From Bacteroidota bacterium (GTDB lineage: Bacteria > Bacteroidota > Bacteroidia > UKL13-3): 45,197 nt of DNA. This document shows positions 41,319-45,197 of this stretch, piece after piece. The DNA is taken from positions 1 to 45,197 of the forward strand of contig CANGGG010000016.1 in the NCBI GenBank assembly GCA_947453415.1, read 5' to 3'. Each line of letters starts with the position of its first letter. Positions within the stretch are counted from its first letter, which is position 1. The notes below the pieces were generated by a model. That model made no database searches, was not told the origin of the DNA, and saw nothing but the letters and a program-made list of their open reading frames with translations. The position numbers were made by a program, and so were the translations under genes.

Positions 41319-41612
41319 GGCTGCTGGCTGCTGGCATCTGGCAGCTGGCTGCTGGCGCCATATCCAACTTGTCATCCTGAGCGGAGTCGAAGGAGACAAT
41401 ACTTGTCACGCAGGGCGTGAGGCAATAGTCCCAATTGTCATCCTGAGCGGAGTCGAAGGAGTCAACTAACAAAAAACAGAAAGAACAGTCATTGAGCTAG
41501 TCGAAGTGAAACAATTGCAATAGTCCCAATTGTCATCCTGAGCGGAGTCGAAGGAGACAACTAACAAAAAACAGAAAGAACAGTCATTGAGCTAGTCGAA
41601 GTGAAACAATTA
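41319..41612. repeat. Clustered dispersed repeats with a 95-bp tandem duplication
   Basis: GCTGGCTGCTGGCATCTGGC-type repeat (41320-41358) comes first. Then three GAGCGGAGTCGAAGG-type arms (CATCCTGAGCGGAGTCGAAG near 41373, 41440 and 41535) follow, and two opposing arms (GTCATTGAGCTAGTCGAAGT near 41490 and 41585). The block at about 41423-41517 is repeated at 41518-41612 with one or two differences (period 95 bp). No gene is seen before the lipoprotein. Confidence 0.8.
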
Positions 41613-41646: not shown

Positions 41647-42246
41647 ATGAAAAATAACAATAAAACAATCATAACAATCATAACAATTATAACAATCCTT
41701 ACTATTTCATCGTGTTCAAAAGATGATCCGAAACAACCATTACCAACCAATCCGCAAGAAGTGTTAACTACCATTTTGATCAAAGGATACAATCAAAATG
41801 ATTCATTAAATACCAATTACCAATTTAACTATAAGTGGGAAGATTTGGATGGTGATGGAGGTAATTTACCAGTGATAGATACTTTAAATTTGGATTCTGG
41901 AATAATTTATACATGTGAAATTACTATTTTAGACAAAACCAAAACACCATTCGATACCGTTTCAAATGCCATTGAAGAAGAGAAAAATGCGCATCAGTTT
42001 TTCTTTACTCCAAGTGCTAATTTAACAGCTAAAATAAAAGCAGAAATATTAGACTTTGATACCAATATTCCTTCCTTGCCTGTTGGATTATCATTTAACT
42101 TAAACACCAAAAGCAATCAAAGTTTTACTACTCCTATATTGGGTTCATTAAACATGGTTTTAAGTCATTATGATGGCGTACCAAAAACCATTGAAAAATC
42201 GAACGAATGCGATATTGATATAAACTTTCCATTAAAATTAAAATAA
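41647..42246 (+). CDS. TonB-receptor-associated lipoprotein
   Basis: A 199-residue lipoprotein: TIITILTISSCSKDD contains a lipobox with Cys23, followed by Ser-Lys-Asp-Asp as in surface or outer-membrane lipoproteins of Bacteroidota. FNYKWEDLDGDGGNLPVID, then EITILDKTKTPFDTVS and EEEKNAHQFFFTPS match a family I know from beside TonB receptors (sometimes labelled type 1 periplasmic-binding-fold superfamily). It probably works with the receptor at 38994, for example as a surface substrate binder. The signal peptide is encoded by a 9-bp tandem DNA repeat (ACAATCATA, about 3.5 copies at 41665-41697). Confidence 0.82.
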   Translation: MKNNNKTIITIITIITILTISSCSKDDPKQPLPTNPQEVLTTILIKGYNQNDSLNTNYQFNYKWEDLDGDGGNLPVIDTLNLDSGIIYTCEITILDKTKTPFDTVSNAIEEEKNAHQFFFTPSANLTAKIKAEILDFDTNIPSLPVGLSFNLNTKSNQSFTTPILGSLNMVLSHYDGVPKTIEKSNECDIDINFPLKLK

Positions 42247-42260
42247 AAAAGCAATAAATT

Positions 42261-42350
42261 GCCACGCCCTTTAGGGAATTGCCACGCCCTTCAGTGCGTG
42301 GATAATAAAAAAAAAGGCCGCTTCCAATTGCCACGCCCTTTAGGGCGTGG
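42261..42350 (+). repeat. Three REP-like palindromes upstream of the Y1 transposase
   Basis: AATTG precedes each of three palindromes: a half copy CCACGCCCTTTAGGG (42262-42276), CCACGCCCTTCAGTGCGTGG (42282-42301) and the perfect CCACGCCCTTTAGGGCGTGG (42331-42350). The invariant AATTG 5' of the hairpin parallels the GTAG tetranucleotide of enterobacterial REP sequences. All three have the same orientation. Confidence 0.8.
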
Positions 42351-42400
42351 AAAAAAAATAAAACAAAAAAAAACTGGCTTTAGCCAAAACTGATAAAACC

Positions 42401-42838
42401 ATGCCATACACCAAAATAATGATTCATTTTATATGGGCTACCAAAAACAGGAGTCCCATAATAACAGCAGAGTTAAAACCATTGCTTTTAGCTCATATTA
42501 AGGAAAATAGCCTAAAAAAAGAAATTTACATTGATTGCCTTAACTGCGTGGAAGACCATATTCACCTATTAATTTCATTAGGGCGTGAACAAACTGTAGC
42601 AAAAACAGCCATGCTCATAAAGGGGGAATCCTCTTTTTGGGTAAATAAGCAAAAAATAATTGATCAAAAATTTGAATGGCAAGATGAATATATTGGATTA
42701 TCGGTTAGCGAATCGGCTATAGGAAATGTAAGGCGGTACATTGCAAATCAAGAAGAACACCATAGAAAAAAAACTTTCATGCAAGAGTATAACGAGTTTT
42801 TAAAAGCGCATGGCTTTAGTCAGGAAAATTTTGGCTAA
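42401..42838 (+). CDS. REP-associated / IS200-like Y1 HUH transposase
   Basis: A 145-residue single-strand DNA nuclease-transposase. EDHIHLLISL contains the HUH motif (His53, His55) and RRYIANQEEHH the catalytic Tyr113 and helper Gln117, so the active site is intact. ATG 42401 begins 11 bases after a hairpin end, and the stop codon lies inside the opposite hairpin end. The protein has the compact length of IS200/RAYT proteins and should cleave at the AATTG-hairpin sequences on both sides. It lies just beyond the 3' end of cas2, in the opposite orientation. Confidence 0.9.
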   Translation: MPYTKIMIHFIWATKNRSPIITAELKPLLLAHIKENSLKKEIYIDCLNCVEDHIHLLISLGREQTVAKTAMLIKGESSFWVNKQKIIDQKFEWQDEYIGLSVSESAIGNVRRYIANQEEHHRKKTFMQEYNEFLKAHGFSQENFG

Positions 42839-42867
42839 AGCCGTTTGAGGGTTTTTTATTCTTCGAT

Positions 42868-42893
42868 CCACGCCCTAAAGGACGTGGCAATTG
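42868..42893 (-). repeat. Inverted REP-like palindrome downstream of the transposase
   Basis: CCACGCCCTAAAGGACGTGG then CAATTG: on the minus strand it reads CAATTG followed by CCACGTCCTTTAGGGCGTGG, the same unit as the three left-hand copies with one changed base. It ends 27 bases before the cas2 stop. Confidence 0.75.
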
Positions 42894-42919
42894 ATCATTG
42901 ACAAATAACAAAGCAATTT

Positions 42920-43252
42920 TTAAAAAAGCTCCAATTGCTGATAAGGTGTTTGGGTGGCTTGTATTTTTTTACCATAAAATATTTCCATCATTCCAAACTG
43001 TTTGTCGGTAATACTTAATATTCCAATATGACCTTTGCTGGGTAGTTTACTTTTGGTTCTATTAATATGCACTTCTGCATTTTCTCGGCTAGGGCAATGC
43101 CTTAAATAAATGCTAAATTGAAACATGGTAAATCCATCTTTCATTATTTCTTTTCTGAAATTAGCGGCTATCTTCTTTTCTTCCGAGGTTTCAGTTGGCA
43201 AATCAAAAAAAATGAGTACCCACATAATTCTATATTCGTTTAAACGTTCCAT
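42920..43252 (-). CDS. cas2: CRISPR-associated endonuclease Cas2 (type II)
   Basis: 110 residues. It forms the spacer-integration complex with Cas1. ERLNEYRIMWVLIFFDLPTE has the ferredoxin-like first strand with the conserved Asp, followed by RKEIMKDGFTMFQFSIYLRH and a GILSITDKQFGMMEIF strand. The leading YRxMWVLVFFDLPT form is typical of type II-C loci in Bacteroidota. The start at MERLNEYRIM is preferred over the internal Met10. It follows cas1 by 136 bases that contain two dispersed repeats, so co-transcription may be intact but is interrupted by insertions. Confidence 0.93.
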   Translation of the reverse strand: MERLNEYRIMWVLIFFDLPTETSEEKKIAANFRKEIMKDGFTMFQFSIYLRHCPSRENAEVHINRTKSKLPSKGHIGILSITDKQFGMMEIFYGKKIQATQTPYQQLELF

Positions 43253-43261
43253 ATTTATAAT

Positions 43262-43373
43262 AGCTACTGGCTGCTAGCAACTAGCAAACAATTTTAAAGC
43301 CAAAATTTGAGTACAACACTGTATTTATTTGATATAATAATTATTGCCTCCTTCGACTCCGCTCAGGATGACA
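43262..43373. repeat. Two dispersed repeats between cas1 and cas2
   Basis: GCTACTGGCTGCTAGCAACT (43262-43281) belongs to the GCTAGAAGCCAGC family, and CTTCGACTCCGCTCAGGATG (43352-43371) to the GAGCGGAGTCGAAGG family. Both families occur elsewhere in the window between unrelated genes. A 93-codon open frame covering this region is not a gene. Confidence 0.7.
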
Positions 43374-44344: not shown

Positions 44345-44440
44345 AAAAAAGCTCCCGAAGGAGCTTTTATAAATACTTTTTAAACCAGTTTTTTTGTTGT
44401 GTTAAATCCTTCGAAACGCAATACCCACATGACTTTAAGC
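44345..44440 (-). ncRNA. Candidate tracrRNA
   Basis: Read on the minus strand, GAAGGATTTAACACAAC (44395-44411) could pair with the start of the crRNA repeat GTTGTGATTTGCTTTC: CACAAC pairs with GTTGTG, and GAAGG pairs with CTTTC using one G-U, with an internal loop between, as in known anti-repeats. An A/U-rich linker follows, then a perfect terminator AAAGCTCC-TTCG-GGAGCTTT plus a T-run (about 44347-44370). The position between array and cas1 is plausible. The anti-repeat is short and the 5' end is not defined, so this is a candidate only. Confidence 0.45.
44346..44371 (-). terminator. UUCG-capped terminator upstream of cas1
   Basis: On the minus strand, AAAGCTCC and GGAGCTTT pair over 8 bp with a TTCG tetraloop, followed by T7. 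It would end the tracrRNA or the array transcript and isolate cas1 transcription from it. Confidence 0.8.
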
Positions 44441-44448
44441 CATGGTGT

Positions 44449-45197
44449 AGTATTTACAATATTCAAAAGAACAATAATTGAAAGCAAATCACAACTTAAA
44501 TTTACAATATAATTAACCAAGAGGAAGTATTTACAATATTCAAAAGAACAATAATTGAAAGCAAATCACAACAATAGCTAACATAAGAGGAAAAGCGGGG
44601 CTAGTATTTACAATATTCAAAAGAACAATAATTGAAAGCAAATCACAACGCCAACCCTTGCGTTAGATACACTAATTCAGTATTTACAATATTCAAAAGA
44701 ACAATAATTGAAAGCAAATCACAACGCATAGTTCATTCCTGCCCCACCTGTTGCGAGTATTTACAATATTCAAAAGAACAATAATTGAAAGCAAATCACA
44801 ACGCAGCTGAAGCAAGGCAAAAATTTATTGATAGTATTTACAATATTCAAAAGAACAATAATTGAAAGCAAATCACAACGCTGATGCATCTGATTCTTCA
44901 ACAACCAATTAGTATTTACAATATTCAAAAGAACAATAATTGAAAGCAAATCACAACTCAGCAAATAAAATTGTCGGATAGGCTTTAGTATTTACAATAT
45001 TCAAAAGAACAATAATTGAAAGCAAATCACAACTTTCTATTCAATGGAACAACCATTTACCAAGTATTTACAATATTCAAAAGAACAATAATTGAAAGCA
45101 AATCACAACGATACAATAGCGCCACTATAAGACTTATCAAGTATTTACAATATTCAAAAGAACAATAATTGAAAGCAAATCACAACATGGGCAAACA
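44449..45197 (-). CRISPR. CRISPR array, at least 10 repeats, open at the right edge
   Basis: Ten identical 47-bp repeats start at 44449, 44526, 44603, 44679, 44756, 44833, 44911, 44987, 45063 and 45140. They are separated by nine unique spacers of 29-31 bp, and a tenth is cut by the window end. In probable crRNA orientation (minus strand) the repeat begins GTTGTGATTTGCTTTC and ends TATTGTAAATACT, as in Bacteroidota type II-C loci. The last repeat before cas1 shows no decay. The leader end is expected outside the window to the right. No spacer obviously matches other sequence in this window. Confidence 0.98.

Follow-up and report, generated by a model that had tools for sequence, protein, structure and literature searches.

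A hairpin-bounded transposase gene beside a CRISPR-cas locus

The window, by which we mean the whole stretch of 45,197 nucleotides that was analysed (contig C16), belongs to a draft genome that comprises 2.89 Mb, divided among 107 contigs. Close to its right end it carries a REPtron-like element in which the gene of a Y1 HUH transposase, tnpA, lies between inverted, tagged palindromes (REPs), followed on the right by cas2, cas1 and a CRISPR array (Table 1). A copy of all 569 bases of the element, 91% identical, is present at another locus in the congener G043, and the homology between the two ends no more than a few bases from the tags.

Table 1. Positions of the element, its parts and neighbouring features in the window
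Feature	Position	Strand	Remarks
Repeat TCATCCTGAGCGGAGTCGAAGGA	41372-41394, 41438-41460, 41533-41555	+	
Truncated half REP unit AATTGCCACGCCCTTTAGGG	42257-42276	+	direct repeat, 20 bp; like units in tandem at contig C22 of the same genome
Tagged REP, imperfect, AATTG + CCACGCCCTTCAGTGCGTGG	42277-42301	+	fold z -3.4
REPtron-like element, tag to tag (CAATTG ... CAATTG)	42325-42893	+	569 bases; homology with the G043 copy
Tagged REP, AATTG + CCACGCCCTTTAGGGCGTGG	42326-42350	+	perfect stem, TTTA loop; fold z -4.7
Inner hairpin GGCTTTAGCC	42376-42385	+	3' end 15 nt before start codon; weak fold alone, z -1.1
tnpA, Y1 HUH transposase, TnpA-Y1 subclass 1.2	42401-42838	+	145 aa; DHIH, WQ, YIANQEEHH; motif, profiles, tree, fold
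Inner hairpin GGCTAAAGCC	42833-42842	-	includes stop codon; inverted to GGCTTTAGCC; weak fold alone, z -0.9
Inverted tagged REP, CCACGCCCTAAAGGACGTGG + CAATTG	42868-42893	-	tag outward; fold z -3.3
cas2	42920-43252		beside CRISPR array
Repeat TCATCCTGAGCGGAGTCGAAGGA	43349-43371	-	
cas1, type II score	43389-44345		beside CRISPR array
CRISPR array, long repeat	44440-45197		reaches contig end

The first-pass annotation had described four AATTG-headed palindromes, three direct on the left and one inverted on the right of an intact transposase gene. The intact gene, the inverted right copy (palindrome at 42868-42887, CAATTG at 42888-42893) and the AATTG palindromes on the left were all recovered, but the first of the left ones is only a half unit, and the left side therefore consists of a truncated half unit and two complete tagged REPs. 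Relative to shuffled sequences, all three complete palindromes fold with z values between -3.3 and -4.7, and the imperfection in the REP at 42277-42301 is the presence of CTTCAGTG in place of CTTTAGGG. The half unit runs straight into the next AATTG and has no REP-hairpin fold (z -0.7 against shuffles). A second set of inverted hairpins hugging the gene, also pointed out at first pass, is borne out by the two inner hairpins. Each of these folds weakly by itself; the case for them lies in their conservation: the pattern GGCTWNAGCC occurs within 60 nt upstream of the gene in 25 of 80 relatives, all among loci L106-L143 (shuffle mean 0.02), and 21 of the 80 have it no more than 30 nt from the stop codon (shuffle mean 0.00). 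An Rfam search over the whole window gave no family at threshold besides one tRNA.

The CRISPR-cas locus that had been reported as adjoining the element is real as far as cas2, cas1 and the array are concerned, with no cas9-sized open reading frame from cas1 to the contig end, but it is not common to congeners, since two of them with the same left neighbour have a right flank that differs from the CRISPR-cas side here. The right flank shared by the congeners G039 and G040 has no match of at least 200 bp to the flank in this genome. A functional link to CRISPR is left unsupported by the differing right flanks of the two congeners, a comparison that concerns the element's locus only, and the CRISPR neighbour is probably incidental. 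Another repeat, TCATCCTGAGCGGAGTCGAAGGA, has four of its seven exact genome copies inside these 2 kb, around the element; six more copies exist at two mismatches, one of them at 21126 of contig C16.

Class of the transposase

The tnpA product scores 85.3 bits against Pfam Y1_Tnp and 58.2 bits against the NCBIfam IS200/IS605 transposase profile (cut-off 55), but only 26.4 bits against the NCBIfam profile of REP-associated tyrosine transposases, for which 80 are needed. Its tyrosine motif, YIANQEEHH, reads Y---Q--HH and, together with DH(I/V)H and WQ, corresponds to the signature of TnpA-Y1 subclass 1.2, and not to the Y---NP signature of RAYTs, which form class 2, as these are given in the excerpts of Quentin et al. 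2018 used here (PMC6006769). The same excerpts place subclass 1.2 near the IS200 transposases, with a low copy number and an occurrence mainly in Cyanobacteria and Bacteroidetes; the REP column of the table reads 'no' for it, and the text has it generally without typical IS200 end structures. All 34 aligned sequences have H53 and H55 of the HUH motif, the tyrosine Y113, and Q117, although the invariance of the peptide YIANQEEH is no finding, because the relatives were partly picked by it.

The transposase phylogeny that had been proposed at first pass separates the protein from the RAYTs. In a quick tree of 78 proteins, taken from 106 protein rows and with mixed inner support, 70 of the 72 subclass 1.2-type rows fall into one group that includes the studied protein (support 87), and the remaining two (L157 and L217) lie beside the four IS200 rows. 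E. coli RayT and a class 2 protein encoded on contig C50 of the same genome stand apart from the tnpA product with an SH-aLRT of 91, class 2 being represented by these two rows only, both long branches, and some other rows being long too. Structural comparison of an AlphaFold2 model (mean pLDDT 87.4) returned IS200/IS605-type chains as the best 29 matches, with E. coli TnpAREP (4er8) at rank 30. By tnpA, the nearest named relatives among the best 80 of 233 are uncultured Bacteroidota.

A classical class 2 REP-RAYT system driven by TnpAREP, as in enterobacteria, was suggested by the first-pass annotation and would explain why the gene is flanked by inverted tagged REPs and why a gene-less inverted pair is present; the appearance of TnpAREP among the structure matches is also in its favour. 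However, the tyrosine motif is Y---Q--HH where Y---NP is expected (signatures from the same part of PMC6006769), the profile score falls far below the cut-off, the tree splits the protein from both class 2 rows, and the genome holds a separate class 2 protein at C50 with 81.8 bits. RAYT membership was rejected because motif, profile and tree contradict it, and the classical system is very unlikely here; the REP-like behaviour of the palindromes, with copies elsewhere in the genome and an inverted pair at C89, is the part of the suggestion that stands. We conclude from motif, profile scores, tree and fold that the enzyme is a TnpA-Y1 subclass 1.2 transposase, beside IS200, and not a RAYT.

Two further systems were seen in the same genome. 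The class 2 RAYT at C50 (L016, 1550-2300; NCBIfam cut-off 80) is flanked by repeats of its own, GTTTGTCCACG(C/G)CACAGGCGTGAACCAGCG, which have the same orientation on either side of it. Another gene that resembles subclass 1.2 (L015; C41, 1960-2977) lies amid CAACTCC-TTCG-GAGTTG palindromes, which recur at L239 (C12) beside another palindrome family built on GGCTTTAGCC.

Dispersed palindromes, gene-less units and half units

The genome-wide count of the palindrome called for at first pass shows that its core, with up to three mismatches, occurs at 11 places on six contigs, comprising ten whole palindromes, some of them imperfect, and the half unit; a reversed control pattern gave no match at the same stringency, and the weak core noted at 41407-41422 is not among the matches. 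One gene-less inverted REP pair is found, at C89. The genome thus contains dispersed single and paired REPs as a REPtron does, at a copy number that is low for a REP family. The other genomes of the genus have 0 to 27 palindrome matches, with none in two of ten, some palindromes being counted on both strands. The 27 matches, at about 17 places, belong to G037, whose nearest tnpA relative is only 55% identical, which indicates that enzyme and repeats need not co-occur.

The gene itself changes place within the genus. Close tnpA relatives (96% and 94%) adjoin lipA in G039 and G043, and the corresponding place in the studied genome lacks the gene and has an array of partial units together with a single REP and an inner hairpin. 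At the element's own locus, a short 3' end of the gene is left between REPs in G039, and G040 has a REP with no gene. A third locus, C67, retains the 3' half of a broken gene in the studied genome and a shorter remnant in G040, and no intact gene copy was seen there. Comparison of these sequences shows that three loci of the genus, at the least, have housed the gene or its remnants. The 569-bp element is full-length in G000 and G043 and nearly full in G039, and none of ten genomes has two copies. Complete copies spread through the genome, named at first pass as the mark of an ordinary insertion sequence, were looked for and are not present in the studied genome, which holds one full copy and one relic where multiple near-identical complete copies would characterise IS200/IS605.

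These data bear on the reading of the element as an ordinary IS200-type insertion sequence, with end hairpins that resemble REPs by chance and dispersed palindromes that are decayed IS ends. Profile and fold agree with IS200/IS605, and the gene or its remnants at three genus loci, with 3' remnants adjoining right ends, are as such a reading would have them. However, near-complete copies exist in three of ten genus genomes, one in each, and because they are single, a simple IS copy is an incomplete account. Moreover, the two ends are inverted and bear outward tags, a contrast to the IS200/IS605 elements, which are described without terminal inverted repeats in the passages of PMC2817692 drawn on here, and in one genome, G200, a single unit with the gene stands against a far greater number of gene-less units similar in length to one another. 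The ordinary insertion sequence is therefore unlikely, and we prefer a REPtron-like mobile unit.

Of the 34 palindrome matches in G200, 28 fall into 14 inverted pairs with a spacing of 95-111 bp, another pair, spaced by 534 bp, encloses the gene, and four matches are single. Both inner hairpins lie between the REPs in 14 of 17 gene-less units that were read, one REP arm being unmatched by the script in the remaining three. The gene-less units measure 118-134 bp, compared to 557 bp for the sole unit with the gene, and the inverted pairs copy the four-hairpin architecture without the gene. Among REPs of the genus, an inner hairpin lies 13-25 nt inside in 24 of 37 cases and on the tag side in one, and 13 of the 37 have no inner hairpin on the far side. 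Similarity between the G200 units extends 35-55 nt outside the tags, so that the tags need not be true ends. The paired units of this genome (L290-L307) have outer repeats of at least two kinds, which mostly follow a TTG or TAG tag. A separate observation concerns G041, in which the four-hairpin unit of C89 recurs three times with a period of about 252 bp (L079, contig C7).

Cognate palindromes are also dispersed in other lineages, to differing degrees. For the Verrucomicrobiota/Planctomycetota palindrome pattern, exact matches occur in 15 of 17 gene-carrying genomes, at least four of them in 14 of 17, with a maximum of 117 (64 and 53 on the two strands) and no exact match in two genomes; the controls gave 0 except for G080, with three control matches and one real match. 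Other cognate palindromes, searched at up to two mismatches, have matches in all ten genomes (2 to 34 each), and further ones in all five genomes (5 to 18 each), with controls of 0 in both sets and with copies adjoining the gene included in the counts. Four of ten genomes (G198, G199, G204, and G206) have palindrome matches only around the gene, and dispersal is accordingly not general.

The AATTG head was viewed at first pass as the guide or cleavage motif, possibly invariant. It is the commonest head, in 32 of 59 REPs, a count in which heads were restricted to six triplets, a choice favouring TTG; it is nevertheless not invariant, and the lineage-wide core is T(A/T)G. The base that precedes AATTG is C in 17, T in 11 and G in 4 cases, which is not decisive for the cleavage site.

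Half units are another recurrent feature. At the C22 locus, the full REP is preceded by zero, one and three half units in G043, G042 and the studied genome, respectively, one of the three being diverged, and expansion is indistinguishable from contraction at this locus. Around the 59 distinct REPs, all of the element's type, same-sense partial units occur 12 times on the tag side and once on the other, and reverse-sense ones three times and once; several of the 12 represent one locus in related species, and a script mask hid some half units, the C22 stack of the studied genome scoring 0. In other families, 56 tagged hairpins have same-sense partial units outward in three cases and inward in none, with one and two in reverse sense, so that the tag-side polarity is weak there; this count omitted 11 loci, of which nine are covered by the 59-REP count and two (L106 and L107) by neither. 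Comparable stacks, broken off just past the loop, are found at L138, a locus assigned to Acidobacteriota. Nested insertion was considered as the origin of the half units and is not supported at the element studied here, where the sequence immediately past it does not show the missing right arm. Tandem duplication or slippage is a possible, plain alternative.

Hairpin ends across subclass 1.2 and a proposed mode of action

Hairpin ends of this kind are common around related genes. A genome scan kept the best 80 of 233 relatives, chosen partly by motif, of which 74 have complete 250-bp flanks on both sides. A strong hairpin within 250 bp is present on both sides in 45 of these 74 loci and on at least one side in 60, whereas five rounds of dinucleotide shuffling gave both-side hairpins in 3, 0, 0, 0, and 1 loci, and control flanks 1.5 kb away contained hairpins in 8 of 66 and 5 of 73 cases. 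On the outward side, 68 of 144 hairpins terminate in TAG or TTG, compared to 19 of 144 on the inward side, and the enriched tag core across lineages is T(A/T)G. The architecture of a REPtron, in which two inverted REPs, tagged at the base of the hairpin, enclose the gene, is found in the element and in relatives. Among genes drawn from 118 Bacteroidota genomes by an IS200-profile search, a strict matched-pair test placed such a pair around 12 of 22 that belong to subclass 1.2 (shuffle mean 0.00) and around neither of two of subclass 1.1. The same test on the element's own family was positive for 5 of 17 subclass 1.2 genes (shuffles 0.00), and it misses L047 and L048, whose REPs are visible. 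The denominators 22 and 17 are the subclass 1.2 loci with long enough flanks, no gene having been obtained in 4 of 30 loci of the former set and 10 of 29 of the latter.

The hairpins also follow their enzymes. Among the 38 loci L106-L143, the loop of the nearest upstream hairpin is TTYA in 22 and TRAA in 6 (none or too short in 10), and that of the nearest downstream hairpin is TRAA in 22 and TTYA in 3 (none or too short in 13), as inverted ends would predict. Stem sequence and protein divergence are correlated over 29 loci (Mantel r 0.51, with none of 9999 permutations as high), a usable stem having been obtained from 28 of 38 relatives, and shared descent alone would likewise produce such co-divergence. 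If the palindromes acted as transcription terminators or as binding sites for proteins, independently of the transposase, their intergenic position and hairpin-forming capacity would be expected. However, no terminator-like match falls on the REPs, the sole match in 42100-43000 being an inner hairpin on the minus strand where shuffles expect 1.0, and tag, loop orientation and stem sequence track the transposase lineage, which makes such a role most improbable.

The subclass was listed without REPs in 2018, an entry that belongs to its description and not to its defining signature and that is contradicted at many loci here; the data suggest that it often has such partner repeats. The REP association is a departure from the published description, and no account of REPs for subclass 1.2 was found among the matches listed in the open-licence PMC literature. 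The range of the subclass in these data also takes in contigs that were assigned to Verrucomicrobiota, Planctomycetota, Acidobacteriota, and Ignavibacteriota. Since the genomes are drafts, mostly metagenomic, contigs may be misassigned; among the best 80 of 233 relatives, the lone Nitrospirota record (L115) is nearly identical to the Bacteroidota record L117.

Collectively, we consider it likely that the element is a mobile unit of REPtron-like type and that a TnpA-Y1 subclass 1.2 enzyme drives it. From the outside in, each end module is made up of a tag of the T(A/T)G type, which is mostly AATTG here, then a 20-nt hairpin whose loop is TTYA, a spacer of about 20 nt and the short GGCTTTAGCC hairpin, the two modules being inverted with their tags outward. 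Sequence comparison shows that ends and enzyme diverge together and that gene-less end modules have been dispersed in several genomes. By analogy with the biochemistry of IS200/IS605 and TnpAREP, the enzyme may bind the hairpin on single-stranded DNA, the tag could serve as a guide, the tyrosine would nick beside the module, and the enzyme is predicted to move itself and, in trans, the gene-less units (REPINs). If a guide rule like the one reported for a Marinomonas TnpAREP (PMC8266576) applied, C|T might be preferred with TAG tags and C|A with TTG tags, which is offered as a guess. As a hypothesis for the half units, the 3'-OH left by a nick at the tag could be extended into the hairpin and then religated, by which one partial copy would be gained on the tag side per cycle. 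The element has the build of a REPtron and probably works like one.

To our knowledge, the way in which REPs spread is still an open question. RAYTs are often regarded as domesticated relatives of IS200. A lineage that is nearer to IS200 and has REP-type ends, several loci and uniform gene-less units would offer a natural test case. A broader proposal can be made only tentatively: subclass 1.2 may be a second large REP-forming lineage apart from the RAYTs, in about five phyla, which joins an IS-like change of locus with a REP-like dispersal of gene-less units, and half units may be nick-prime-religate scars that record enzyme activity. All five other subclass 1.2 proteins tested pass the NCBIfam model 'IS200/IS605 family transposase', so genes of this subclass are probably annotated as insertion sequences and may be REP systems. 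The lineage-specific palindromes of Bacteroidota, Verrucomicrobiota, and Planctomycetota would thereby gain a candidate maker.

Among known systems, IS200/IS605 elements (IS608 and ISDra2) share the fold, the catalytic residues and hairpin ends with the element, whereas inverted ends with outward tags, gene-less units and the absence of any genus genome with more than one near-complete copy set it apart. A REPIN consists of two REPs in inverted orientation that form one non-autonomous unit. The gene-less units described here are likewise inverted REP pairs, but they have four hairpins instead of two and their enzyme is not a RAYT. REPtrons, composed of REPs and a class 2 TnpAREP/RAYT, resemble the element, according to the parts of PMC2817692, PMC6006769 and PMC8266576 consulted, in having a Y1 HUH gene between inverted REPs, a short tag at the base of the hairpin, REPs scattered singly and in pairs, and palindromes particular to the enzyme lineage; they differ in the enzyme (class 2 instead of subclass 1.2) and the tag (GT(A/G)G instead of T(A/T)G), and the element and its relatives additionally show a second conserved inner hairpin per end within the element's clade, a gene or its remnants at several loci within the genus, and truncated unit stacks. 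Subclass 1.2, as far as the excerpts of PMC6006769 describe it, agrees in Y---Q--HH, DH(I/V)H, WQ, low copy number and occurrence in Bacteroidota, but many loci here have hairpin ends and the range of phyla is wider. The PATEs of Haloquadratum, in the portion of PMC3119063 available, are similar as short gene-less units with near-terminal palindromes and an IS605-type relation; they are described there without terminal inverted repeats, whereas the present units have inverted two-hairpin ends and accompany a subclass 1.2 enzyme.
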